DNA of 40,621 bases from a virus: positions 1 to 40,621 of IMG/VR virus record IMGVR_UViG_3300031839_001552. One strand, written 5' to 3'. The notes under the pieces are model-generated. The model did no database searches. It saw only the letters and a program-made list of their open reading frames with translations, and was not told the origin of the DNA. Within the stretch, counting starts at the first letter, position 1, and every line of letters starts with the position of its first letter. This document shows, piece by piece, positions 1 to 40,231 of the stretch. The position numbers and the translations under genes are program-made.

Positions 1-95
1 TCGTTCCGGTACACCTGCACATCGGCGCCCAACTCGGCCAGATACTGCACCACGTTGTAGGTGAAGGAATCGTAGTTATCGATCATCAGCAGCAT
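1..95 (-). CDS. trpG: TrpG, anthranilate synthase glutamine amidotransferase subunit (5' end only)
   Basis: The minus strand encodes 31 codons from ATG at 95-93, beginning [19 protein letters not shown], the typical start of the class I glutamine amidotransferase subunit of anthranilate synthase (TrpG/PabA). The enzyme supplies ammonia from glutamine to TrpE in the first committed step of tryptophan synthesis in the cytoplasm. The gene runs off the left edge. The first seven codons and everything upstream come from the prophage: the bacterial sequence resumes after the 16-bp att core at 76-91. A phage-borne GGGAGG (plus 107-112) serves as Shine-Dalgarno. TrpE lies about 40 kb away on the other side of the prophage, so the two subunits are no longer adjacent. 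Confidence 0.93.
76..91. other. attL core (16-bp direct repeat with attR)
   Basis: TTATCGATCATCAGCA occurs here and again at 40212-40227. Past the core the two copies share a further CATA after one mismatch (G here, A at the right end). The core lies within codons 2-7 of trpG. The distance between the copies gives an excised phage of about 40,136 bp. The core is small and coding, not a tRNA 3' end as is common for this integrase class. Confidence 0.88.
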
Positions 96-1392: not shown

Positions 1393-1749
1393 CCAACCGC
1401 GAAAGTGAGGAGGAAGTCTTTCTGATATATAACGCTAGCCCAATGCAATAGCATTGTCTGTAAGATATATCTCACAAAGCAATGGGCCTTTTGGCCAGCC
1501 CATAGGATGTTTTTCTGCGCAGTGGCATCAGAGAGAAAGCTGAAAACTGCTCGGCTTGGGGCAGGCGACCCCAGCATTATGAGTGCTACCAGCGATTATA
1601 ACTAGCTGATTTTAATAAGGTCGTGTCGGCCGCCCTCGCCCACATTATCCTATCAATGCACATCTACGTTCATGGTGTGGCCACAAAATGCCCACAGGGA
1701 TAAATAGAGCCTTGCGTTCAACTGAGCTTCAATCTGGAATTGGAGCTTC
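1393..1749. other. Gene-poor stretch between cargo units
   Basis: I see no convincing gene. A 62-codon minus-strand frame (1389-1577) lacks a ribosome site. On the minus strand a perfect TATAAT lies at plus 1595-1600 and may be the -10 of the 1159-1383 unit, although no good -35 is present. Near 1724-1752 an imperfect inverted repeat (AGCTTCAAT / ATTGGAGCT) could end transcription of the lipoprotein gene, but it lacks a strong T-run. Confidence 0.4.
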
Positions 1750-3111
1750 TTATTGGACTTGAACTGGTTGATACTCTTCAACACTGCTCAGACCATCAAT
1801 AGCGAAGTTTAAGTTCCAATTGTCTTCTGGATTGGACAAGAAGATCGTCGCTGCCACTGCGTAGAAATCGCCCAAAGACCCTTTCGATATGCAAAGGTGA
1901 CAATACATCTTCGCGGGCCCATTCCCTCCGCTTCCTGCCCAAAAATTCACGTTTTTGCCTGAGGACGGAGCAAGAGACTCTCTGACAGTAACACCAACAT
2001 TTAATGAATAGGAGCCTCCCGTATCAGGAATATTTGGGCCGTAGCTCCGAAAGTAGTCCCCATTTATTCTCGCAACAACCCCGCTGTCATGCATCGATGA
2101 CGCGTTCTTATTTGCGTCTAGCTCTTTGTTACCTGCATTCCCACTGGAAACGTTAATTTCTATTGCTAATGGTTGAATCAGTCCTGATGAATGGTAATTC
2201 AGATTGTCGAGACCGCTATGACCCAGTTCAACGTTTTTTAGGTATGTTTCAGCCCCATTGCTGTCGATACCAAAGTTGATTGCATGAAGAATCACTGAGT
2301 TCTGAATATAAAGCCGAGGAGCTACACCACCATCGGAGTTTGCCTGGAAACCATGATTGCCACCCTCGAGTTGAACACCCTCAATTAGCAAAGCGCGATC
2401 TCCGCTTATTGAATTAACGGAGGTGGTTAACAGGACGAGGTTAGAGCTTGGCGGAGCATCGTCAAATGTCCGGACGAAGAGCTCTTTGGTCTGTGTATCA
2501 TAGTACCAAGATCCAGGAGCTTCACCGACAGTTTGGGAGTCTGCGGCCCGAGACATCGTTCGGTAATCGTCAGAGAGGACCTTGCTGACTCGTCTATAGA
2601 TTGTAGTCGAGAAAGTTGATTCAAGGCCGGGTACTGGATCAAATGAGTATTCGGATGGGTCTTCACCCATCCGAATGATTGTTTTTTCTGTGGATGAAGC
2701 ACGGATCGCAATGTTTTGTTGGGGCTCGTATCCGTCAAGGCCATCGTAATGTATACCGGGAGCAAGCCAGATTGTTCCTGCATCTTGTCTTTGGGCTGCA
2801 GCCTTTATCGTTTTCAGCGGCTTATCCGAAGTTCCCGGATTTGAATCGTTACCCTCATCCCAGTCAACGAAATATTCGCCGGTGGGGCATTCCTCGCTGG
2901 AATTCCACAACTGATTCAGGTCCAAAGCAACGGATGCTCGGCCTTGTGAATCTATCGTATAGGTTGAGAAGGGTAGGCGCTCGAAGCCTTCCGGAACTTG
3001 GAATCTAACACCTTGGGTTTGGGGTTTTTCTTCCGTAGAAACCGGCGAGTCTGATCCGCCACCGCCGCAACCAGACAGGCCAAGAATTAAAAAACAAACG
3101 GCGCGCCACAT
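1750..3111 (-). CDS. Lipoprotein with tailspike-like beta-helix domain, paralogue of the adjacent tailspike
   Basis: The 453-residue product begins with a lipoprotein signal peptide: hydrophobic residues 3-12, then lipobox LSGC with the acylated Cys at 15. Gly at +2 predicts outer-membrane sorting. After a short linker, residues from about 35 to the end align along their whole length with residues from about 325 to the end of the neighbouring tailspike. Shared blocks include PGSWY, GLDN-NYH, SSMHDSG (identical) and a block starting RING-Y (11 of 17 identical). The region looks like a right-handed parallel beta-helix. It lacks the tailspike head-binding part, so it cannot be assembled on a virion in the usual way. 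It sits 86 bp downstream of the tailspike stop. The start has only a weak Shine-Dalgarno. Receptor masking or receptor modification on the lysogen surface is inferred. Confidence 0.85.
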   Translation of the reverse strand: MWRAVCFLILGLSGCGGGGSDSPVSTEEKPQTQGVRFQVPEGFERLPFSTYTIDSQGRASVALDLNQLWNSSEECPTGEYFVDWDEGNDSNPGTSDKPLKTIKAAAQRQDAGTIWLAPGIHYDGLDGYEPQQNIAIRASSTEKTIIRMGEDPSEYSFDPVPGLESTFSTTIYRRVSKVLSDDYRTMSRAADSQTVGEAPGSWYYDTQTKELFVRTFDDAPPSSNLVLLTTSVNSISGDRALLIEGVQLEGGNHGFQANSDGGVAPRLYIQNSVILHAINFGIDSNGAETYLKNVELGHSGLDNLNYHSSGLIQPLAIEINVSSGNAGNKELDANKNASSMHDSGVVARINGDYFRSYGPNIPDTGGSYSLNVGVTVRESLAPSSGKNVNFWAGSGGNGPAKMYCHLCISKGSLGDFYAVAATIFLSNPEDNWNLNFAIDGLSSVEEYQPVQVQ

Positions 3112-3197
3112 AAAAGATCCGAGTTCAGAGTTTTGTGGAACCCTACCTTAATACGCAGCATGGTCGCAATTGAGGGAATGCCTGTTTTTGAAAGTTA

Positions 3198-5444
3198 CTA
3201 TTTTGGCCAGTACTGAGTGACGTGATCTGACGGGTTTGCCTCTGTGATGGCATCGGAATCGACTGATTCACAAACATTTAAAGTTGAACCATCACCGTCA
3301 GCGTAGTAGTCATGGACTGACCGCTTCGAAACGGTTTTATGGCAGAACATGGTGCCAACGAAGCCCGGGGCGCCAATGGCAAAGTTCCTGTTTTGCCCAT
3401 CGCTTGGCGCGATGCTGTCCTCGGCAAGCGTGCAAACATTGAGCGAAACTCCGTTAGTCGTGTCTATAACATTTGGTCCATAGTTACCGTAGTATTCTCC
3501 GTTAATTCGGATGATGTTTCCGGAGTCGTGCATTGAAGACCCATTTTTATTTTCTGCGCCCCCTTTCTTAATACTTCCTGAGCCATAGCTTTTGACGTTT
3601 ATTTCAATAGCGTTGCAGTTAAGAGAGCCTGTTGAGTCCTCGTGGTAATTAAAGTTATCCAGGCCACATCCGTAGGCCACGACGTTTTCTACAAACGAGT
3701 CAGCACCGTCTGCGTCGAGCCCGAAGTTCAACGCGTATGATAGTTCCCCGCCATACATGTAAAAGCGAGGCTTGTTGCCATTTGCAGCGTAGGCTTTGAC
3801 TGGATCACCGCTTTGCCATTTAACGTTTTCCAGGAGAAGAGCTTTATTATCTTCAACACGAATACCTCCATTGGACTGCACAAGAAGATCCTGACCGGGC
3901 GCTGAATCAGTGTATCTCCTAACGTAAAGTGTGCTCGTCCCTGAATCGAAGTACCAACTGCCCGGATTGTTGTTCACCTCTGTTGCGCTAGAGCGTTCTG
4001 TTAAGCCTTTGTAGCGACCGTCTTCGTCAACTATTGTCGTGTCGAAAACGCCAAACGCTGAGCTTACCCCGGTTTCGTAGGTTGCAGAAAACCCACCAGA
4101 AACAGTCCACGATAGGTCAGAAGGATCAGGCCCATTCCAAATCGTTACAGGTTTTCCTGACCAACTTTTGATTTGCAGAAATGGTTTCGAATAAGAGGAA
4201 TCTACAACCATGCTTGCGCTGTTGTAGTTGGTTGCCGACTTTATCCAAATGATGCCCGCCGAGCCCAGTGCCAGAGCTGCGCTGATGGTCTTCTTTGGCA
4301 ATCGAACGTTTCCTTGGTTGCTGTCGTCGCCATTTTCATAGTCGACAAATACATCGACTATCGAAACGGCCTCATTGCTCAATGCGAAGTCTTTCACATT
4401 GAACGCGACCTCAGCTTTTCCACTGGCGCTAATGAAATAGTTAGCGAATGGAGCCCATGAAAAACCGGTAGGAAGGATATACTTTGGTCTTCCTCGAGAA
4501 ACTTTGGCGCCCACTCGTTGGGTCATTCCTGAAAAAATGGCCCCTTCCCCAATGAATTGGACATTCTGGAGGTTGCTCAGCAGGCCGCAAGAATAACTCC
4601 CTGGGGATAGCTCGATGTGATCGAGGTTATTGGAGCTGGCATAGTCAACGAGAGCCTGAAAAAGACTGGTGTCAGTGTCTCCAGTGCCTGGGAGGATGCC
4701 GGCACAGGCGCCCTTATTTCTGTTCCCAATAGCGACGAAACAACCTGTCCCGGTCGGATCAGCCTCACCAACTGCGCTCAAAAAATCTGCTAGCGTCGAC
4801 TTCTCACCTGACCAGGATACCGTTGGTGAAATGACGCTAATTCCGTTGTGATCCGATTTTGAGCGGCCTGAATCAAAGATGAAGGTACCTCCACCTTCAA
4901 TTGAACCTGAATAATAACCCTGCACAGCGTACTGAAATCCGTTGACGAGAGGCTGATTGGTCAGATCATCAATTCCAGAAACTTTAATTACGCGGCTGTT
5001 GACCGCAACTTCAACACTGGTGCCATCTTCCATTGTGACAATTGCAGCACCCTTTCCGCTCGCAGCAGTTGCGAGATCTTGACGCAGAACAGCATCCCCG
5101 CGGGCAACAAACGCTCCGCTCTCATTCATGCCGGCGCCGGTCGTGGTGTACGGCAAAACTGTTCCTGATGCAGCCGACCAGAATTGGCCTGCGTCGCGAA
5201 TGATCTGATTGTAGGCAGTTACCTCAATTCCCGCGGCGTAGTCACCGAGGAACTCATAGCCACTTGCAGCCAGGAAATCATTAAACGCTTTCTCCATGCC
5301 GGCGCGGCTCTTGCGTGGTTTCCCCAATCGATCGCGATACGTTTCTGCTGTGCCATTCTCCAGGTAATCTGCGTTCTTCGCGTTATCGAGCAGATCGCGG
5401 GGATCAGATGAGCCAACAGGGTTGCCGGTGTTGTACTTGGTCAT
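3198..5444 (-). CDS. Tailspike / receptor-binding tail protein with beta-helix domain
   Basis: This 748-residue protein starts at ATG 5444, with GGAG upstream. A TTG four codons earlier is less likely. Residues 1-90 resemble the N-terminal virion-attachment region of phage tail proteins (SSDPRDLLDNA, then a GTAE--RDRLGK stretch). The middle, about residues 205-310, is a Gly-rich beta-helix-like part like those of tailspikes. The C-terminal half (about 325-748) is the domain shared with the lipoprotein, including GLDN-NYH and SSMHDSG. Its expected job is binding, and perhaps enzymatically processing, a surface glycan at adsorption. It is the last gene of the late operon and lies after an intrinsic terminator. 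Its GC is lower than that of the tail genes, consistent with modular exchange of host-range genes. Confidence 0.85.
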   Translation of the reverse strand: MTKYNTGNPVGSSDPRDLLDNAKNADYLENGTAETYRDRLGKPRKSRAGMEKAFNDFLAASGYEFLGDYAAGIEVTAYNQIIRDAGQFWSAASGTVLPYTTTGAGMNESGAFVARGDAVLRQDLATAASGKGAAIVTMEDGTSVEVAVNSRVIKVSGIDDLTNQPLVNGFQYAVQGYYSGSIEGGGTFIFDSGRSKSDHNGISVISPTVSWSGEKSTLADFLSAVGEADPTGTGCFVAIGNRNKGACAGILPGTGDTDTSLFQALVDYASSNNLDHIELSPGSYSCGLLSNLQNVQFIGEGAIFSGMTQRVGAKVSRGRPKYILPTGFSWAPFANYFISASGKAEVAFNVKDFALSNEAVSIVDVFVDYENGDDSNQGNVRLPKKTISAALALGSAGIIWIKSATNYNSASMVVDSSYSKPFLQIKSWSGKPVTIWNGPDPSDLSWTVSGGFSATYETGVSSAFGVFDTTIVDEDGRYKGLTERSSATEVNNNPGSWYFDSGTSTLYVRRYTDSAPGQDLLVQSNGGIRVEDNKALLLENVKWQSGDPVKAYAANGNKPRFYMYGGELSYALNFGLDADGADSFVENVVAYGCGLDNFNYHEDSTGSLNCNAIEINVKSYGSGSIKKGGAENKNGSSMHDSGNIIRINGEYYGNYGPNVIDTTNGVSLNVCTLAEDSIAPSDGQNRNFAIGAPGFVGTMFCHKTVSKRSVHDYYADGDGSTLNVCESVDSDAITEANPSDHVTQYWPK

Positions 5445-5461
5445 GCGTTTCTCCAAGGCTT

Positions 5462-5487
5462 AAAAAAACCCGCTCAGGGCGGGTCGT
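5462..5487 (-). terminator. Intrinsic terminator between J-like gene and tailspike
   Basis: On the minus strand a CCCGCC/GCGGG stem is followed by an uninterrupted T-run (plus poly-A 5462-5468). It lies 17 bp past the J-like stop and ahead of the tailspike, so tailspike expression must tolerate or bypass it. Confidence 0.8.
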
Positions 5488-5504: not shown

Positions 5505-8162
5505 TTAAGCTGGGGTGTTGTCGTCATCGGCATACACGCGCTCATCGTAGTTGGTCGCCGTAACGCCAACAGAGAGCGGTCCGCTCGGACTGATTTCGGT
5601 AACCAAGGCCGGAAAGCTCCAGCGATCGGTTGTGCCAAAGTAAATATGGGTCGGCTCTCTGTCCGAAGGGGTGACGGCCGGCCATGGCTGAGGGATTGAG
5701 ACAAGCGCTGTGTATTTGTCAGGCCCTGGCGTTGCCGGAAACGGCCCGACAACTTCACCAGATTCGGAGCGGTAAGCAACCACGTGCGTTTTGCCTGCCT
5801 CGAACTCAAGCGGCTCAGAAACAACAATGCGATCAGCGCCGATGGATTGCAGAATGGAGGCCTTGCCGTAGCCGGGTATATCGTCCAAAAGCGGAACATA
5901 GGACAGATACTGGCTGTTCAGCGCGTCCAGCTCCGTTTCAAAGGAGTACGCCCAGCGGCGATAACGCTGTGCTCTTCTTCGTCTCATGCCGATTCGCCAG
6001 GCCCGAGTCTGGTCTGTGACGCCTTTGAGGTTTACTTTATCGAGCTTGACCGCCTGGTCTCCTGGAAGCAGACACTGGATTGTTTCCGTGGTCCAGGTGC
6101 CGGCCTTGGTGAACTCAACCTCTACGCCATCGGGCTCATCCACTTTCTTGCCCTGGAACTGCCGACGCAGCGGAGTCGTCATGTTCTCCGGGCTGTAGCC
6201 GTCCTCGAATTTTTCGCGCGGTTGGTCGCGGACTGGGGTGATGACGCCATTTTCCAGGGTCATTTCGGCAAATCCCGCCCTCAGAATAGTGTCGATCGCA
6301 TCCTTGGCGGTTCCATCTGAGAACACATAGTCAAAGGTGTCACCGCGAGGCGTCCAGATTGCCTCGTATCGCTCCATCTCATCCAGGTTGATCCGGTCGT
6401 CTGCGTATCCGAGGGACTTGGCGACGTAGCACGCAGCTGCGCTGATGCTCCTGGTTGCCGTGTTGGCCGTGAATTCGCCGTTGCTTATTGTGGGTAACTT
6501 GCGTGTGAATTCCAGGTTGATCTTGTTGTTGGAGCTGCTGGCAATCTCATCAGAACCGACAATATCCACGGCCATCGTGGTTATGCCTTCGTAACTCGTT
6601 ACCGTTGGCAATTTGCAGCGCAACGCCGTGAAGTCGAGCCGGTCCAATGAAGTGACTGAGACATCCTCTGCCCCCAGGCGGCTCACCCGGACCTCGGGCC
6701 GGATCGCCGAGGGCAGGTTGACGGTAAAGGTCCAGCCGAGCTGATCGCGGGTGCTACCGCTGACCGTCTCAATCTGTTCCTGCCAGGTGACAGAGCCGAC
6801 TTCGCGGTATTCGATTCGAATGTCCCGGCTTCTGCCGTTGATAGATTCGCCATCAACCACGCCCAAACCAGACGAAGCGAAAATGTCGACCTCAATTGTA
6901 TCGGTGGTTTCGCCATCCGGGCACACAACGAATGGCCCGGCTCTGTTGCCGGTGAATTCATCGGCGCTCCAAACAATCTCCAGGGTGACAGAAGCTGACG
7001 GCAGGTTTCCATCCCAGTCCGGATCAGGTGAACCGTCCGCTAGCTGACGCTCAACCTGAACCTCTGTGTCGCTGGGAATTGAGATAAGTGCGTACTCAGT
7101 GCCCGCTTTGTCGATGGACATGGCCCCGGACAGACCCGAGGAATCCGTTACAGGATCTCCGCCGGTTGTCTCCAGCTCAACCTCATCCTTGGTCGCGTTG
7201 ATCGTTGATACGACGTAGGTGCCATTCACGTCGACATTGGATTCGATGTTGACGGTCATGCCAGCGGTCAAGTGCTGGAAGTTACCATTGAAAACAAGTG
7301 TTGAACCAATGCCCGGGTCGGTGATGGTTATCGACTGAGTCATTTTAATAGAGCCATCGACCCCGGGCTCCCATAACTCGCCTACTGAAATGCCGGTTAT
7401 CGCATCGCCCGAAGCGGTGCCGGATCCGAAATACGTTCGCTCGTCATAGGTGACGCCCTTTAGGCGAAGGCCTGCACTGCCTTGCGTTCCACCAACTTCG
7501 GGCGATTGAAACCAGTTCTCGCAATTCGGGACACTCGAGAGGTCCGCGCCAGGCTCATAAATGGTGAAGTCCGCGTTGTTCAGCTCATCGATCGGCGTCT
7601 CACCGATTTTCACGGAGTCCGGATCAATCTCGTATTCGCCCACACCAATAGAAAGCAGCAAGCGAATCACCTGTGTTTTCCGGTCCTGGTAAAAGGTGCG
7701 GGGCTGATTCAGGTAATCCGGGTAACGAATGTAATAACCGAAACCTTCGGGGATTCCTTGGCCAAGCCTGGCGATATTGGCCCGAGCGTCAGCCGGATTT
7801 AACTGGCTACCCTGAGATCCCTGGCCGCCTTGCTGGCCGGGAATGTCGATCAGTGCCTCGATCGCCAGCTGAGGGCCCGCAATCGGTCCGAATACCGTCG
7901 GGAAAACAACGGCCAGGGCGTCGACCACATCGCCATAGGGAACCGGTCGAAACTCCACAACATCGCTTTGACTGATAACAACATCGGCCCAGTCCATCGG
8001 CTTAACGATAGAGCCGTTAATCATGCAGGAAATCGGCTGAGAATCACCGCGCCGGTAATTCGGCGTGAAGGATTTAACGAAGGCTTCAACGGTTAAGCCC
8101 GAACGATCGTAAGTCTCTGCCGGATCACCCGGCATGATGCTGCTGTAGACTTTAATCGTCAT
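5505..8162 (-). CDS. Tail tip attachment protein, lambda J-like host specificity protein
   Basis: The product has 885 residues from ATG 8162; an in-frame TTG at 8171 is the alternative. It is the largest virion protein here. It follows the NlpC-like and two small tail-tip genes in the order seen in lambda-like siphophages, where J forms the central hub of the tail tip and contacts the receptor. Visible features are an N-terminal domain with a beta-grasp-like start, a hydrophobic Ala/Val/Pro patch near residues 80-105, and fibronectin-like beta-rich segments in the middle (TVTLEIVW, VTWQEQIETVSG). Its start overlaps the end of the NlpC-like gene by 11 bp. Identity as J-like is supported by size, composition and synteny more than by a single motif. 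Confidence 0.82.
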   Translation of the reverse strand: MTIKVYSSIMPGDPAETYDRSGLTVEAFVKSFTPNYRRGDSQPISCMINGSIVKPMDWADVVISQSDVVEFRPVPYGDVVDALAVVFPTVFGPIAGPQLAIEALIDIPGQQGGQGSQGSQLNPADARANIARLGQGIPEGFGYYIRYPDYLNQPRTFYQDRKTQVIRLLLSIGVGEYEIDPDSVKIGETPIDELNNADFTIYEPGADLSSVPNCENWFQSPEVGGTQGSAGLRLKGVTYDERTYFGSGTASGDAITGISVGELWEPGVDGSIKMTQSITITDPGIGSTLVFNGNFQHLTAGMTVNIESNVDVNGTYVVSTINATKDEVELETTGGDPVTDSSGLSGAMSIDKAGTEYALISIPSDTEVQVERQLADGSPDPDWDGNLPSASVTLEIVWSADEFTGNRAGPFVVCPDGETTDTIEVDIFASSGLGVVDGESINGRSRDIRIEYREVGSVTWQEQIETVSGSTRDQLGWTFTVNLPSAIRPEVRVSRLGAEDVSVTSLDRLDFTALRCKLPTVTSYEGITTMAVDIVGSDEIASSSNNKINLEFTRKLPTISNGEFTANTATRSISAAACYVAKSLGYADDRINLDEMERYEAIWTPRGDTFDYVFSDGTAKDAIDTILRAGFAEMTLENGVITPVRDQPREKFEDGYSPENMTTPLRRQFQGKKVDEPDGVEVEFTKAGTWTTETIQCLLPGDQAVKLDKVNLKGVTDQTRAWRIGMRRRRAQRYRRWAYSFETELDALNSQYLSYVPLLDDIPGYGKASILQSIGADRIVVSEPLEFEAGKTHVVAYRSESGEVVGPFPATPGPDKYTALVSIPQPWPAVTPSDREPTHIYFGTTDRWSFPALVTEISPSGPLSVGVTATNYDERVYADDDNTPA

Positions 8163-8550
8163 AGTAAACAACCTTCAGAAACCGCTGCTCGAAATACCGC
8201 AAGTTGACCAGCCGCGGGCCATGTCCGCCTCGTCCGGGTTCATCGGTTTCCAGAATCATCCGCTTGCCGTCTACATCAACCACGATAGCGATGTGAGTGC
8301 AGAGGGATCCACGAAAGGCGCAAGCAATTGCTCCTGGTTGCGGTCTAACTTCACGGTAGTTTGGCGCCTCCGCTCGGACGGCCTCAGTGAGCGCTCGTTT
8401 GTCACTGCCCTCAACACCGCCATGAACCGCCATCCAGGGCTTGTTGAACAGATAAACGCGGGCCATCCGAACAATGCCGTAGCAGTCAGCGCCAGACTGG
8501 GAGCGCCCATTCGGCTCGTATGGAATCGCCAGGATTTCATCAAGGGTCAT
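8152..8550 (-). CDS. NlpC/P60-type tail assembly peptidase
   Basis: This 132-residue protein starts at ATG 8550, preferred over an upstream start at 8604 because GAGG lies just before it and a TAATG junction links it to the previous gene. The catalytic Cys is in SGADCYG (Cys23) and the His in CTHIAIV (His86), the layout of NlpC/P60 cysteine peptidases. In lambda-like phages the corresponding tail-tip protein may open peptidoglycan during DNA entry or act in tail-tip assembly. The third polar catalytic residue is not obvious. Confidence 0.85.
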   Translation of the reverse strand: MTLDEILAIPYEPNGRSQSGADCYGIVRMARVYLFNKPWMAVHGGVEGSDKRALTEAVRAEAPNYREVRPQPGAIACAFRGSLCTHIAIVVDVDGKRMILETDEPGRGGHGPRLVNLRYFEQRFLKVVYYDD

Positions 8551-29840: not shown

Positions 29841-30170
29841 TCAACTGGTGGTAGGTCCGCGTATACCGATGCCGGCAACGCCAGCTGCACCCCCGGGCAG
29901 CACTTCCTTCTCGTTGTCAGTAACAGCAGTCGATACGGTTACCTTCGCGATCACCCCGCCGGGTGACTCTGGCAATCGATCTGGCGCGACCATGGCGGCA
30001 GTTACTTCTTCCAGGTCGTAAGCCGGAATTACAGCGATGGATTGCTCCATCGGATCGAGCTGCAGGGTGTCTTGATCGACAATTTCTGCAGCAGCTGGCA
30101 TGGAGGCCAGCGAGCACAACGCGAATACCGCGGACGCCGAAGCGAGAACAATGATTCTCTGTCGTGCCAT
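29841..30170 (-). CDS. Predicted secreted protein of unknown function
   Basis: From ATG 30170 (AGGA upstream) this 109-residue product has a typical signal peptide: basic start, hydrophobic residues about 6-23, and AxA cleavage near 26-28 (MPAAAEIV). The mature part is acidic, then Gly-rich at the end. No family is recognised. A periplasmic protein between cro and rusA is unusual; such a gene is more typical of cargo. Its reality rests on the signal peptide and start site. Confidence 0.6.
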   Translation of the reverse strand: MARQRIIVLASASAVFALCSLASMPAAAEIVDQDTLQLDPMEQSIAVIPAYDLEEVTAAMVAPDRLPESPGGVIAKVTVSTAVTDNEKEVLPGGAAGVAGIGIRGPTTS

Positions 30171-30621
30171 CCGGTGTTCCTCGTCGTTGGTTGCCGGGCT
30201 TCAAGGCGGGCCCGGAATCGCCTACAAGTTCGCAATGCCATTGCGGTTGATGCGTCGGCCGGGAAACTCCCAACCCCTTACGCATCCGAGGAGGGCTCTA
30301 CCTGACGCGGCAGACTGGGGACCTGCCAGGTCATCCTTGGTCGAGGGAGCAGAGCCCTCCCGAATACGGCCTGTCTTTCCAGGCTGTCAGCGCGATCAAC
30401 TGGGGCGGTGGTGGGTTACCTTTGCCTCGCGCTGCTGGCGTTCTATCGCCGGGACCCTGTCCCCGGCTGCAATGTCGGCACCTCGGCTTACGCCTGGCCA
30501 GCTTGTTTTACCGGCTGCTTCTGATAGCGCTGCAGCTCGCGCTTGCTTCAAACCCTGTACACATATCCACTACCGGAAAAATGGGTATTCCCGGTGTTCC
30601 GGAGTGGTTAAATGGAGAACA
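30171..30621. other. Gene-poor stretch between the secreted-protein gene and cro
   Basis: No convincing gene is seen over about 450 bp. It contains a long structured element (30290-30360, listed separately) and smaller hairpins at about 30369-30384 and 30449-30469. A minus-strand frame of about 50 codons near 30560-30410 lacks a start with a ribosome site. Confidence 0.5.
30290..30360. ncRNA. Candidate structured RNA, three-way junction
   Basis: A perfect 10-bp inverted repeat (GGAGGGCTCT at 30290-30299, AGAGCCCTCC at 30351-30360) encloses two further stems: ACCT...GGCAG / CTGCC-AGGT (about 30300-30331) and TCCT / AGGGA (about 30334-30348). The fold is a three-way junction on either strand. 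If transcribed leftward it would be in the cro-early transcript. It is not a tRNA: no anticodon arm or T-arm consensus fits. Function unknown. Confidence 0.45.
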
Positions 30622-30861
30622 TCAGGCAGCCTCCCCGGGGTTATCAGGGGGAGGCAGGCCGTCGGTGGAGTTTGGGTAAATGTCCGGTCGGGCCTCATGC
30701 GGAGTGACCTTCCAACCAGTGGCAGCACAGGTGGAAATTACATTCCAAGGGGCGATTCGCCGGATGCCATTCCGGTAGTGCTTTATTGCAGAAACCGAAA
30801 CGCCGAGGGTCTTCGCTGCGACTTCCGGCCCTACTTGCTGGATATAGGTCTGTATGTTCAT
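30622..30861 (-). CDS. Cro-like repressor, YdaS-type HTH protein
   Basis: The 79-residue protein from ATG 30861 has an HTH at about residues 9-29 (VGPEVAAKTLGVSVSAIKHYR), and the C-terminal G-KVTPHEARPDIYP pattern typical of YdaS/Cro-like proteins. It opens the leftward early operon, divergent from the CI-like repressor, the classic Cro position. No Shine-Dalgarno is present, and the promoter -10 ends 7 nt before the ATG, so the message is probably leaderless. Confidence 0.82.
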   Translation of the reverse strand: MNIQTYIQQVGPEVAAKTLGVSVSAIKHYRNGIRRIAPWNVISTCAATGWKVTPHEARPDIYPNSTDGLPPPDNPGEAA

Positions 30862-30865
30862 GAGG

Positions 30866-30948
30866 GATACGATATGTATACATCTGTATCGAGTCAAGCG
30901 GATTTGGATACAAAAAGTGTCGTTGCCAGAATGGATACAATGCGTACC
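30866..30948. promoter_or_regulatory. OR-like operator cluster with three GATAC-N5-GTATA sites
   Basis: Three 15-bp sites lie here: 30866-30880 (GATACGATATGTATA), 30907-30921 (GATACAAAAAGTGTC) and 30934-30948 (GATACAATGCGTACC). Two further sites are at 33801-33839. They cover the PR-like and PRM-like promoters between cro and the repressor. Spacing and dyad form resemble lambdoid operators. The repressor is the expected ligand. Confidence 0.7.
30869..30897 (-). promoter_or_regulatory. PR-like promoter for cro
   Basis: On the minus strand TTGACT (plus 30892-30897) and TATCGT (plus 30869-30874) are 17 bp apart. The -10 lies 7 nt before the cro ATG, so transcription should begin at or next to the start codon. 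Confidence 0.6.
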
Positions 30949-30950
30949 AT
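30923..30950 (+). promoter_or_regulatory. PRM-like promoter for the repressor
   Basis: TTGCCA (30923-30928) and TACCAT (30945-30950) are 16 bp apart and lie 7 nt before ATG 30958. Transcription beginning at the ATG would give a leaderless repressor message, as in lambda. The operator at 30934-30948 overlaps this promoter. Confidence 0.5.
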
Positions 30951-30957
30951 TCAAGCT

Positions 30958-31884
30958 ATGGAAACCTGGCAGGACCGCGTGCGGTCGGTAATGAAAGAGA
31001 ATAGGGTCACTCAAGATGCCCTCACTGACGTGCTTGGCGTATCAACGCGAGGCGCGGTCGGTCATTATTTGAGCGGAAGACGTGAACCTTCAGCCGCTCA
31101 ACTGCAATCCTTGGCAAAATTCCTGAAAGTTAACCTCAACTGGCTCCTAACTGGTGAAGGCTCCCGAAACCTCAACATATTTGAAGATGTTGTGAGGATA
31201 GTAGCGGAGAGAAATCGAAAGCCGGGTGAAGAACACCTGAGCGATCAAGAAGTCTACGAGCGTGTAGAAGCTGAGCTGGAGCGAATACAAGGTGACCAGG
31301 ACCATGCGCTTGCTCTCCAGTCTGGGCAGTATGAACAATATTTTGATCTGGCTCCTGAAGGCCGTCGAGCGTCCCAAGAACATGCCAAGAAAAGCAAGGA
31401 TGAACTTGAGTTTTTCGGGCACATGGATGCCTGGGATAGCAACACGCCATTGGATGAGGATGAAGTTGAATTGCCTCTGTTCAGGGAAGTCGAGCTGGCC
31501 GCCGGCGCGGGCCAGACTCAGGTAGTCGAGAATCATGGCGCCAAACTCCGCTTTGCAAAATCAACGTTATCCAGGGCAGGGGTGGTCGAAGAGAACGCGG
31601 CCTGTGCCTTTGTCCGGGGCAACAGCATGGAACCGGTTATGCCTGATGGCACCTGTGTTGGGGTAAATACAGGTGACACCGCCGTCCGGGATGGCGAGAT
31701 CTACGCGATCGACCACGATGGCATGCTCAGAGTTAAGTACCTGCACCGCCGACCAGGTGGCGGAATTAAAATTGTGAGCCAGAATGCATCAGAGCATCCG
31801 ACTGAGGAATACACTGCAGATCAGGTAGCTGAAAACAACATCAGAATCATCGGGCGTGTCTTCTGGTGGTCTGTGCTAAGATAA
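30958..31884 (+). CDS. CI/LexA-like prophage repressor (S24 self-cleaving)
   Basis: From ATG 30958 the 308-residue protein has an N-terminal XRE-type HTH (about 5-60, METWQDRVRSVMKENRVTQ at the start, SGRREPSAAQL at the end). A linker follows, then an S24 peptidase domain with candidate cleavage bond Ala182-Gly183 (LAAGAG), nucleophile Ser223 (GNSMEP) and Lys260 (RVKYL). It should repress lytic promoters and be inactivated in SOS. In-frame ATGs at 30931 and 30940 are possible earlier starts; 30958 is favoured by promoter spacing. A much longer upstream open frame is not real. Confidence 0.93.
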   Translation: METWQDRVRSVMKENRVTQDALTDVLGVSTRGAVGHYLSGRREPSAAQLQSLAKFLKVNLNWLLTGEGSRNLNIFEDVVRIVAERNRKPGEEHLSDQEVYERVEAELERIQGDQDHALALQSGQYEQYFDLAPEGRRASQEHAKKSKDELEFFGHMDAWDSNTPLDEDEVELPLFREVELAAGAGQTQVVENHGAKLRFAKSTLSRAGVVEENAACAFVRGNSMEPVMPDGTCVGVNTGDTAVRDGEIYAIDHDGMLRVKYLHRRPGGGIKIVSQNASEHPTEEYTADQVAENNIRIIGRVFWWSVLR

Positions 31885-31900
31885 ACAAGGAGGGTCGAAG

Positions 31901-32893
31901 GTGGCCGAGGAAGATAAGGCAGAATTTGGAGTAACCGATTACATTCTTTACGCGGGTGAAATCAGTCGCGTCGGATATGATCAGATTTGCGAGGTTCACA
32001 ACGGCGACCTTCCAGAGAAAGGTAACCAAAAGGCCGTTCTAATCCTTGCAACACTGGGAGGGGATCCGGATGCTGCGTTTAGAATTTGTCGATCGCTGCA
32101 CCACCATTACCCGGAAGGGCTGACGGTTTTCATTCCCGGCCTGTGCAAGTCGGCGGGCACGCTTATAGCGATCGGCTCCAGCGAAGTCTGGATGTGTGAC
32201 CGAGGAGAGCTGGGACCTCTTGATGTCCAACTTGCAAAACCCGACGAGTTATTCGGAAGGAGCTCTGGATTAGATCTTCCCCAAGCGATCGAAAATCTGC
32301 AGGCTCAAGCCATACGTACATTCCGTGAAAGTTTGCTCGATATTCGTATGGGTGGGAAACTTTCGACGAGTATGGCTGCCAAAATATCTACTGAGCTTAC
32401 TACAGGGTTGTTCCAGCCGATTTTCGGTCAGATAGACCCAACTAAGGTCGGAGAGACTCAGCGTGCAATGCTGATAGGGTATGATTACGGCGAACGCTTA
32501 AATAACAAGTTCAAAAATCTAAAGCCCGGAGCACTTCAGAAGCTTACTACCGGTTACCCTTCGCATAGCTTCGTCATAGACAGGAAAGAGGCGAGGGATC
32601 TATTTAAGAACGTGGCCAGGCCACCTGCTTGGTTACAAAATGTTGCGGACAACATATCGAAGGCGATTGAGAATGCGACTTTTGGTATGGATAATCCGCT
32701 TGTAACAAAATTAGACGATATCGAACCAACTATTGAAGAAAACACCAAGGACGAAAATCCTAAACAAGGGGCTCATGATGACAAATCTGCAGGATCTTCA
32801 GGAGACAAAGACTCAGACGGCTCGCCGAAGCGATCGTCTTCAAGAGGAAAAGCTGGCTCACGAAAGGCTAAGGGTGACGAAGAGCCTGATTGA
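31901..32893 (+). CDS. ClpP-fold serine protease of the SDH proteinase type, repressor-linked cargo
   Basis: The 330-residue protein starts at GTG 31901 with AAGGAGGG upstream, 16 nt past the repressor stop, so both are in one transcript. Motifs of the serine dehydrogenase proteinase group are clear: VLILATLGGDPDAAFRI (about 46-62, oxyanion strand), GLCKSAGTLIAIGSSE (about 80-95, Ser84 nucleophile) and ELGPLDVQL (103-111). The last 65 residues are Lys/Asp/Ser-rich and look disordered. It occupies the rexAB position of lambda. A lysogen-expressed proteolytic function, maybe against other phages or host factors, is inferred; targets unknown. Confidence 0.85.
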   Translation: MAEEDKAEFGVTDYILYAGEISRVGYDQICEVHNGDLPEKGNQKAVLILATLGGDPDAAFRICRSLHHHYPEGLTVFIPGLCKSAGTLIAIGSSEVWMCDRGELGPLDVQLAKPDELFGRSSGLDLPQAIENLQAQAIRTFRESLLDIRMGGKLSTSMAAKISTELTTGLFQPIFGQIDPTKVGETQRAMLIGYDYGERLNNKFKNLKPGALQKLTTGYPSHSFVIDRKEARDLFKNVARPPAWLQNVADNISKAIENATFGMDNPLVTKLDDIEPTIEENTKDENPKQGAHDDKSAGSSGDKDSDGSPKRSSSRGKAGSRKAKGDEEPD

Positions 32894-32961: not shown

Positions 32962-32988
32962 AAGCCCGCCATTGAGCGGGCTTTTTAT
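32962..32988 (+). terminator. Intrinsic terminator of the repressor-protease operon
   Basis: AAGCCCGC (32962-32969) and GCGGGCTT (32976-32983) form a perfect 8-bp stem with a 6-nt loop, continuing into TTTATT. It separates the plus-strand repressor operon from the convergent HNH gene and overlaps the latter's stop. Confidence 0.85.
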
Positions 32989-33722
32989 TGTCCGCAATAA
33001 TCCGCCAGCTGCTGCTTGTATCGCTTCGCCTGTCCAGGCGACAAGGTTATATCGTATAACTTCACTATCCGAATGAACCTGCTCACGTACTGACAGCGTC
33101 CGGCTGGCGGAAGCCAGTCCTCGGGCCCCTGGGCGCCTTTCTGGCGGTTCAGGGATAGCTCCACACTCCACAGATTCACTGGGTCGTTTGCAAACTTCTC
33201 CCGCTTTTCCCTGGACCAATTATTGGCTCCGTGATCCCAAGCCCACTTCAGTGGTACCACATGATCAATATCGATCTCTGAAGCATTCTGAATGACCTGT
33301 CCTGTGAAGGGACTTATCCAGCGCCCTGTCACTACCCGGCACCCACGTTCGTCAGCAAACCGCACGTTGGTGCTGGACTGAGCGATCAGGGCCTCAGCGC
33401 GGCTGTTCTGGCAGTCTCCGTCCGCATCATCCCATCCATGCCCAAACTTGCTTCTCTCATAGCCTGAATCTGCTTTCGCTAGTGTCCTGCTGGCGGACTC
33501 ACCGTTGTCTCGATATCCGCTCACGCCCTTCGGGAGACGACCGCCGGAATCCAGGCATGACTCAACTGTATCGAACGGCCGGTAGTTGTTTGTCCGCTCG
33601 TAGTATGAGCTGGCTGGCGGGTGACAGATGCCTGAACTGGTTTTCTTGACTAGGTCGGCGATGGCATGGGATGGAGCAGACAAAACCAGGAAAACTAAAA
33701 CTGGGGTGAGCTTTCTTTGCAC
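32985..33722 (-). CDS. Secreted HNH nuclease, DUF1524-like
   Basis: From GTG 33722, with AAGGAGG ideally placed, the 245-residue protein starts with a signal peptide (MQRKLTPVLVFLVLSAPSHA, cleavage near residue 20). The mature part has the secreted DUF1524/GmrSD C-terminal pattern: GRWISPFTG (133-141), EIDIDHVVPLKWAWDHGA (about 149-166, His154) and LWSVELSLNRQKG (about 184-196, Asn192, Lys195), ending with YDITLSPG. Six Cys suit a periplasmic protein. It lies in the immunity region, a cargo spot. It may degrade incoming DNA in the periplasm or outside the cell; this is inference. Confidence 0.85.
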   Translation of the reverse strand: MQRKLTPVLVFLVLSAPSHAIADLVKKTSSGICHPPASSYYERTNNYRPFDTVESCLDSGGRLPKGVSGYRDNGESASRTLAKADSGYERSKFGHGWDDADGDCQNSRAEALIAQSSTNVRFADERGCRVVTGRWISPFTGQVIQNASEIDIDHVVPLKWAWDHGANNWSREKREKFANDPVNLWSVELSLNRQKGAQGPEDWLPPAGRCQYVSRFIRIVKLYDITLSPGQAKRYKQQLADYCGQ

Positions 33723-33800
33723 AAATGCCTCCTTGTAGGTGGCGGCAAACATACCGAACTTCGAATCCAGATTCACCCTTCCGATACAATCCACAAAAAA

Positions 33801-33849
33801 GATACAAATTGTATTGACCCTATGGATACATAACGTATACATTGTATCC
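33801..33849. promoter_or_regulatory. OL-like operators
   Basis: Sites GATACAAATTGTATT (33801-33815) and GATACATAACGTATA (33825-33839) share the GATAC-N5-GTATA form of the 30866-30948 cluster. The second is within a 26-bp imperfect palindrome from GGATACA to TGTATCC (33824-33849). They overlap the -35 and -10 of the early plus-strand promoter. Confidence 0.72.
33814..33841 (+). promoter_or_regulatory. PL-like early promoter
   Basis: TTGACC (33814-33819) and TATACA (33836-33841) are 16 bp apart. Start near 33848 would give a leader of about 28 nt to the ATG at 33876, which has GGGAGA upstream. Both operators overlap the promoter. Confidence 0.68.
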
Positions 33850-33875
33850 ATAACGTTGATCAGGGAGACAACACC

Positions 33876-38616: not shown

Positions 38617-38873
38617 CCGAGGTGAAGCGTCGCAAAAGAGCCCCGGAAGTGACCCCGGAATTGATGACCGCTCAGCAGGCCGCGGACTTCTGCGGCATGG
38701 GCCGAACCACGCTGTTCAAGCTGATCAGTGAAGGGCTTTTCCCGGACGGTCGTCAGATGCCGTGGGGTAAGCGCTGGCATCGGGATGTCCTTCGGCAATG
38801 GCTCGACGCACAATGGCAGGCAGCGGAGGCACCGAAGGACGAGAAGGACGAGAAGTCGCGGGATGCAGCCTGA
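38613..38873 (+). CDS. xis: Excisionase / AlpA-type HTH protein
   Basis: The 86-residue protein has an AlpA/MerR-like HTH at about residues 15-60: ELMTAQQAADFCGMGRTTLF, KLISEGLFPDGRQMPWGKRW, then HRDVLRQWL. It is the last plus-strand gene and next to the integrase, the usual place for the directionality factor. Its last 149 bp overlap the convergent integrase. Confidence 0.75.
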   Translation: MTEVKRRKRAPEVTPELMTAQQAADFCGMGRTTLFKLISEGLFPDGRQMPWGKRWHRDVLRQWLDAQWQAAEAPKDEKDEKSRDAA

Positions 38874-40047
38874 GCGTGTCTACCAGGTCCGCCCACCACT
38901 GCAGCATTATCCGGCGTTGTTCCAGGTATTGAGCATGGTTGTAGGAGGCCCGCACTTTGTTGCCCGGGGAGTGGGCCAGCTGGCGCTCAATCCAGTCAGC
39001 ATCAAAACCGTAGGTGTTCAGGAGAGTGGAGGCGGTCGTCCGGAATGCGTGGCCGCTGAACAAGCCGCTGTATCCCAACCTATCCAGTACGCGGTTGATC
39101 GTCGTCGCTGACATGGGCTCTGTCGGCTGGCGAAGGTTCGGGAAACAGTAGAGCCGATTACCTGTCAATCCCTGCAGTTCCCGCATGAGCTCCACCGCCT
39201 GGGTGGACAGCGGAACGACATGCGTCACACCCCGCTTCATATTCTCACCTGGTATCGTCCAGGTTGGCTCCGCTGATTCCAGATCGAACTGTTCCCACTG
39301 GGCCTTACGAATCTCCACTGTCCGGACCATGGTCAGGGCCAGCATCCGGATCGCTATCTCCGTAATCCGGTATGCGATCGCATCCTCTTTCGGCCAGATA
39401 GCCCGACAAAGCTTACCGAATTCTTCCAGGTTGTAGGACGGCTTGTGTTTCGGTTTGGGCTTCTTTATGGCTCCCCGAAGTGGTGCGGTTGGATCATTGT
39501 CCGCCCGGAGCGTGGCGATCGCGTGCCGGTAGATGGCCGCCAGCCACTGCTTCAGGTTCACGGCAATCGTCGGGGCCCGCTTCTCCACCTTCTGCAGCTC
39601 GGCCAATATTTGGGCCGGAGTGATATCACGGATGCCCTTGTGACCCAGGGTAGGCCAGATATCGGCCTCAAGCATACGCACCACCTGGCGATGATAGTAG
39701 GGGCTCCACTCAGATTTGTTCTTGGCGATCCATTCCTTGCCGACTTCTTCCAGGGTATTCGCCTGCTGAGCCTGCTTCTCCGCCAGCTCTCGGCGCTTCA
39801 CGTCGGCAGGGGCTTCGCCATTGGCAACGCACTTCTTGGCCCAGTCACGAGTTGCCCGGGCTTCTGAGATCGTAATGGTGGGGTATTCGCCGACTGTGAA
39901 CATGCCGGCCTTACCATGCAGCCGGTACCGATACCGCCAGAACTTCGAGCCACTGGGACGGATCTCGAGGGCGAGGCCTCCAGAGTCAGCGATGCGATAA
40001 GTCTTGTCCTGGGCTTTCGCCTTTCTGGCCTTGGTATCAGTGATCAT
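38725..40047 (-). CDS. int: Tyrosine integrase, P4/DUF4102 family
   Basis: The 440-residue protein has the N-terminal DUF4102 domain (KAQDKTYRIADSGGLALEIR), a core-binding domain (about 95-190), and a catalytic domain with Arg242 (TMVRTVEIR), His333-x2-Arg336 (SGHAFRTT), His359 (LAHSPGN) and a Tyr at 369 or 374 before YLEQRRIMLQWW. The start lies 29 bp from the right-arm repeats. The C-terminus beyond about residue 395 is a Pro/Ser/Arg-rich tail lying opposite the excisionase gene. Int is on the trp strand, so trpE read-through could reach it. Confidence 0.94.
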   Translation of the reverse strand: MITDTKARKAKAQDKTYRIADSGGLALEIRPSGSKFWRYRYRLHGKAGMFTVGEYPTITISEARATRDWAKKCVANGEAPADVKRRELAEKQAQQANTLEEVGKEWIAKNKSEWSPYYHRQVVRMLEADIWPTLGHKGIRDITPAQILAELQKVEKRAPTIAVNLKQWLAAIYRHAIATLRADNDPTAPLRGAIKKPKPKHKPSYNLEEFGKLCRAIWPKEDAIAYRITEIAIRMLALTMVRTVEIRKAQWEQFDLESAEPTWTIPGENMKRGVTHVVPLSTQAVELMRELQGLTGNRLYCFPNLRQPTEPMSATTINRVLDRLGYSGLFSGHAFRTTASTLLNTYGFDADWIERQLAHSPGNKVRASYNHAQYLEQRRIMLQWWADLVDTLRLHPATSRPSRPSVPPLPAIVRRAIAEGHPDASAYPTASDDRPGKALH

Positions 40048-40162: not shown

Positions 40163-40231
40163 TTAACGGAAACCCGCGAACCCGTTTGAACAGCCATGGA
40201 CCCCGTGCTGATTATCGATCATCAGCAACAT
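40163..40231 (-). pseudogene. trpG': Stub of the native trpG start left at attR
   Basis: Native GGAGGAACGG precedes ATG 40231, then MLLMIDN reads through the att core into phage DNA, giving a 22-codon frame ending TAA at 40165-40163. It is behind trpE in the original place of trpG. Confidence 0.85.
40212..40227. other. attR core (16-bp direct repeat)
   Basis: TTATCGATCATCAGCA is identical to 76-91. The native trpG start lies on the trpE side of it. Integration here is between codons of trpG. Confidence 0.88.

Follow-up and report, generated by a model that had tools for sequence, protein, structure and literature searches.

Several phages encode proteins that act on the host receptor beside the gene for the receptor-binding protein (RBP). 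In T5, llp directly neighbours the RBP gene pb5 on its downstream side; for small siphophages, it has been proposed that RBP genes are accompanied by genes for cognate exclusion proteins, directly downstream of gpJ (PMC9586334, PMC8594841, PMC12685063). T5 Llp, Cor and Rtp45 are all phage lipoproteins whose genes adjoin the RBP gene, as in the locus described here (PMC9586334, PMC12685063). These proteins are small, unrelated to the RBP and act from the periplasm on protein receptors (FhuA, LptD). In the Pseudomonas phage D3, iap, the O-acetylase gene and wzy-beta, which are responsible for O-antigen seroconversion, fill the slot between the tailspike gene and attP. P22-like phages combine a spike with a conserved N-terminus and an exchangeable C-terminus with conversion genes in the same phages (PMC2629481); their gtrABC genes are glucosyltransferase systems and not spike homologues. 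The locus described here resembles both arrangements in position: a lipoprotein gene lies directly downstream of a tailspike gene, and the lipoprotein is itself homologous to the receptor domain of the tailspike. Searches of the open-licence literature turned up no description of a lipoprotein made from a tailspike domain.

The stretch of DNA analysed (the window), a virus record 40,621 bases long, contains the whole prophage. Its gene content includes an integrase (38725-40047), a CI-type repressor, terminase, portal, capsid, tape measure, a J-like tail-tip protein (5505-8171) and the tailspike, among others. The two ends of the prophage are:

76..91, no strand assigned: attachment-site core (TTATCGATCATCAGCA), at the start of host trpG
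40212..40227, no strand assigned: second copy of the core, beside the 3' end of host trpE

This 16-bp att repeat marks both prophage ends, and translations place it right where host trpG begins, after trpE. Because a sister record, L079, carries both att ends joined, the 16-bp core is a real attachment site. The lipoprotein gene lies between the two cores and is therefore phage DNA, which rules out a host gene swept into the window. The host trp operon is split by the prophage between trpE and trpG, and as the core lies in the first trpG codons, integration restores the start of trpG on that gene's side. Other genes of the prophage were noted in passing: (i) a 594-aa CI-type repressor (HTH and S24 peptidase) with an N-terminal extension of ~270 aa, directly followed by a protein with a ClpP-like SDH-type serine protease domain (30100-32893); (ii) a possible phage-carried defence gene (32985-33851), whose 288-aa product has a GmrSD C-terminal (type IV restriction) domain (E 8.5e-12); and (iii) a 265-aa PHROG 3630 protein (355-1152) with a near-identical copy adjoining the attachment site in L079 and distant relatives in Salmonella phages SEN4/SEN5 and a Klebsiella phage.

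The features of the tailspike-lipoprotein locus are as follows:

5467..5485, minus strand: hairpin resembling an intrinsic terminator, located between the J-like and tailspike genes and also present in seven close sister records
3198..5444, minus strand: tailspike gene, 748 aa from the ATG at 5444, with an N-terminal virion-attachment part and a C-terminal beta-helix receptor domain
3300..4484, minus strand: tailspike portion covered by the BLASTP alignment to the lipoprotein
1750..3111, minus strand: lipoprotein gene, 453 aa (open reading frame with a lipobox and a domain of a tail-protein family)
3067..3111, minus strand: signal peptide and lipobox, residues 1-15 (MWRAVCFLILGLSG followed by C), from the sequence, a PROSITE-type rule and the disorder of residues 1-30 in the model
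1753..3006, minus strand: right-handed beta-helix domain, residues 36-453, tailspike-homologous over 36-418 (BLASTP, profile and model)
2023..2208, minus strand: conserved polar patch, residues 302-363 (D302, N305, Y306, H307, E318, N336, H341, R348, Y353, D363)
1566..1697, minus strand: 130-bp element that is conserved immediately downstream of the tailspike gene in sister phages and here bounds the lipoprotein slot on the far side

The lipoprotein N-terminus reads MWRAVCFLILGLSGCGGGGSDS and conforms to the PROSITE-type lipobox rule, with Cys15 and Arg3. In the window, this rule selects 7 of the 933 possible starts of open reading frames of at least 60 aa, and only two of the seven look real: the lipoprotein and a spanin-like Rz1 (22981, minus strand). 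Residue +2 is a glycine and not an aspartate; by the Lol rule, Gly at +2 is no inner-membrane retention signal. By default, most Lol-sorted lipoproteins face the periplasm. The N-terminal virion-attachment part typical of tailspikes is absent, and a signal peptide and linker stand in its place; the earlier note had likewise named a lipobox there. The ribosome-binding site is weak, and no defence-system match was found for the protein. Within its coding sequence lies a 13-bp perfect inverted repeat (2648-2677) followed by ATTGTTTTTT on the plus strand; the arrangement resembles an intrinsic terminator in antisense orientation to the gene (folding z-score -5.6).

The tailspike open reading frame was called as 5456..3198 (minus strand); translation very likely starts at the ATG at 5444, which is preceded by the Shine-Dalgarno sequence GGAG and opens MTKYNTGN. 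Lipoprotein residues 36-418 align with residues 325-719 of this frame, with 142 of 397 positions identical (36%, E 7e-75). The local alignment score of 633 lies 88 sd above that of shuffled sequences (n=200; mean 46, sd 6.6, max 71). Both the E value and the shuffles rule out chance similarity. The alignment contains the two blocks singled out in the earlier note: SSMHDSG is identical in the two proteins, and GLDNLNYH in one is GLDNFNYH in the other, one residue apart. The description of the lipoprotein as a full-length paralogue from about residue 35 holds as far as residue 418, the last ~35 residues having no alignment to the tailspike. The presence of a lipobox-bearing paralogue of the tailspike domain beside the tailspike is thus confirmed. 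At the level of sequence, these data show an intact gene of tailspike-domain ancestry, with a predicted lipobox, directly after the tailspike and inside the prophage.

The two genes have almost nothing in common at the DNA level (best match 19 bp, E 0.03). In a tree of 27 domains, those of the lipoprotein and the tailspike are sisters (support 97/94), each on a branch of about one change per site, and the phage tailspike L009 is the next relative of the pair (100/100). The absent DNA similarity and the long branches rule out a recent duplication of the tailspike domain; the divergence of the two is old. The GC content of both genes is 0.48, against 0.55-0.61 in other phage genes, which fits a joint acquisition without proving it. 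The tailspike N-terminus matches phage tail proteins, including the solved 9occ (E 3e-18), as well as the N-termini of D3 orf27 and PS-1 gp77.

Profile searches placed the lipoprotein in a family of phage tail domains, with matches to PHROG 16653 ("hydrolase"; E 5.9e-33, positions 39-462 of 482) and PHROG 32409 ("tail fiber"; E 4.2e-23). Relatives of the domain occur in tail proteins of Vibrio, Staphylococcus, Klebsiella, Gordonia, Shewanella and other phages. Virion tail proteins and stand-alone domains make up the remaining members found, and, unlike the protein described here, they have no lipobox. A first alignment of seven sequences gave no stretch conserved enough for scans. Among 27 divergent members, G286, D302, N305, H307, E318, G327, N336, H341, R348, G351, Y353 and D363 are invariant; the pattern by which most members were collected fixed N336, G337, H341, R348, G351 and Y353 and left G286, D302, N305, H307, E318, G327 and D363 free. 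In a set of seven members, five of which came from tblastn, N336, H341 and R348 likewise do not vary. The lipoprotein keeps all family-invariant residues; D302, N305, H307, E318, G327 and D363 are kept in both it and the tailspike, and of these D302, N305, H307, E318 and D363 bear out the conserved polar motifs reported earlier for the two copies. For this exact domain family we found no activity on record and no solved structure, and a PDB profile search with it matched a short N-terminal repeat motif and nothing else.

AlphaFold2 gave confident right-handed beta-helix models for the lipoprotein and tailspike domains (pLDDT 88 and 87.5; pTM 0.87), in line with the common fold anticipated in the earlier note. 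Residues 1-30 of the lipoprotein are disordered in the model, as expected of a signal and tether. Its DSSP string contains two sets of equivalent strands on successive coils, 304-307, 338-340 and 361-363 on the one hand and 315-319, 345-349 and 368-372 on the other, from which the polar residues probably stack as one patch on three successive coils. For both domains, the best solved fold matches were GH120 XylC, BT_1002 and PL9 lyases, followed by the tailspikes of LKA1 and P22, all of them carbohydrate-active beta-helices; in these model comparisons TM-scores of at most about 0.5 show a common fold and no family assignment. The beta-helix epimerases AlgG and AlgE4 were among the weaker matches (TM 0.2-0.35), and the strongest viral structure matches were phage tail proteins.

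How the slot after the tailspike is filled in related phages was examined in 13 loci gathered by J-like proteins 54-95% identical. Their spikes have only the N-terminus in common with the window spike, except in L008, which has the same spike (95%) and whose contig ends inside the spike gene. The distance from the spike stop to the 130-bp element is 48-146 bp in L015, L016 and L017-L019 and 711 bp in L079; here it is 1,500 bp, filled by the lipoprotein gene, which begins 86 bp after the tailspike. The lipoprotein is absent from the sister phages with other tailspikes that are readable past the tailspike. In L015, L016 and L017 the element runs, by eye, into a tRNA-Met (CAT)-like 3' half ending in CCA, which is probably their attachment site. 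In the window phage and L079 the match (1546-1697) stops at GGGGTCG, and the element of the window phage is probably a relic att region, as if the old tRNA attachment site had been replaced by a trpG-targeting integration module. In the related contigs L081, L083 and L084, the slot element comes straight after the J-like gene, and a tailspike gene seems to be missing.

The position of the lipoprotein gene can be compared with that of the systems described above. D3 encodes a homologous J-like protein (34% identical), and the N-terminus of its tailspike is homologous to that of the window spike (32% over 170 aa). Both the seroconversion genes of the D3/P22 type and the lipoprotein gene lie between tailspike and attachment site. 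However, D3 alters the O-antigen through membrane or biosynthetic proteins, whereas the window phage has a single lipoprotein of spike-domain build, a beta-helix with no glycosyltransferase, acetylase or polymerase domain. The comparison with T5 Llp drawn in the earlier note holds for gene position and lipidation and fails for structure: unlike Llp, Cor and Rtp45, the window lipoprotein has 453 aa and is homologous to an RBP domain, and no Llp/Cor-type family appears among its Pfam, PHROG and NCBIfam matches. The slot position matches that of D3, T5 and the small siphophages and therefore speaks for a receptor-linked function.

The hairpin upstream of the tailspike gene may place both genes behind a putative attenuator. 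No promoter, terminator or special structure was detected in the 86-bp gap between them; the promoter scan was for sigma-70, which is a weak test here. This makes late co-expression likelier than the display by the lysogen proposed in the earlier note; the gap offers no support for strong display in the quiescent lysogen. The simplest reading is that spike and lipoprotein are made from one transcript late in infection; a lysogenic promoter for the lipoprotein is possible.

With a probability of about one half, we propose that the anchored receptor-handling domain prevents adsorption or re-adsorption by occupying or trimming the receptor glycan. The lipoprotein would be made together with the tailspike, late in infection and with some read-through in the lysogen, and would then be exported, lipidated and sorted to the outer membrane. 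Having the fold and the polar residues of the tailspike, the anchored domain would bind, and probably cleave or trim, the same or a related surface glycan. Removal or occupation of the receptor on the cell that makes the protein, and on the debris of that cell, would be expected to keep sister virions and progeny from adsorbing there, resulting in exclusion or in lytic or lysogenic conversion. Several points count against this reading: the domains are only 36% identical, and their ligands may differ; no activity is on record for the family, no promoter was detected in the gap, and no second phage with such a pair was found; and, given the usual periplasmic orientation of Lol-sorted lipoproteins, outward exposure is putative. 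Overall, the interpretation given in the earlier note is partly supported.

The same domain could instead serve the host, as an outer-membrane glycan-degrading or -binding lipoprotein that aids the lysogen's use of polysaccharide or biofilm, its detachment or its adhesion, with no anti-phage role. Such cargo would be consistent with the fold matches to glycosidases and polysaccharide lyases, with the old divergence from the tailspike and with the location close to the end of the prophage, a common site of cargo genes; however, the domain descends from phage tails, as the sister of the adjacent tailspike domain with L009 next, and its gene sits in a receptor-linked slot, so that we regard this as unlikely. 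A related reading differs in the side of the membrane: a periplasm-facing lipoprotein would modify or retain the glycan during export and alter the surface polymer from inside. Enzymes of the AlgG or AlgL type act on alginate during its export. The default Lol orientation agrees with this reading, as do AlgG and AlgE4 among the fold matches and the periplasmic action of T5 Llp and Rtp45 (PMC9586334, PMC12685063), but these fold matches are weak and nothing shows this domain family acting on export intermediates; we consider it distinctly unlikely.

Two further explanations were weighed. A former tailspike domain that gained a start and a signal-like N-terminus and is now decaying would agree with the single occurrence and the weak ribosome-binding site, but is hard to reconcile with an intact frame of 453 codons, a confident fold, a lipobox with a proper linker and the retention of every invariant residue despite the long branches, and is thus very improbable. 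That the second copy is an accessory spike or a decoy subunit that co-assembles with the tailspike is suggested by the same domain in a neighbouring gene and by the fact that tailspikes are usually trimers; as it carries an export signal where the virion-attachment part (tailspike residues 1-320) would be, we give this hardly any credence.

Further examples were sought in several collections. Exact-peptide and degenerate-pattern scans of IMG/VR, which overlook distant lipoproteins and possibly omit records near the window's own genome, gave no lipobox-bearing member of the family. None was found in one genome per GTDB species, in phage and plasmid collections, or in sister phages gathered via the J-like protein and the slot element. 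The spike and lipobox-bearing paralogue pair, for which the earlier note had proposed a search in other prophages, did not occur in the readable sister phages or in 50,697 phage records, which speaks against its generality. The lipoprotein is the only lipobox-bearing member found of its tail-protein domain family, and so a single example. A tail-fibre open reading frame of the same family (L045:1437-3107) has, in frame and upstream of where it probably starts, a stretch resembling a signal peptide; it was dropped as a second member since, in our reading, translation likely begins inside the frame at MANKYCNL, a beginning typical of tail fibres. Another candidate, L088, was a false match.

We tentatively suggest, as a possibility that we hold with some doubt, that an outer membrane-anchored copy of a tailspike domain may be a matched exclusion factor that destroys or masks the receptor and is exchanged with the spike, the RBP itself supplying the exclusion protein. 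A search rule follows from this suggestion: lipobox-bearing homologues of tailspike domains beside tailspike genes. If the suggestion is true, the pairing of an RBP with an exclusion lipoprotein, known for protein receptors, would reach glycan receptors, and exclusion specificity would come free with receptor specificity, the exclusion protein being a copy of the receptor-binding domain.
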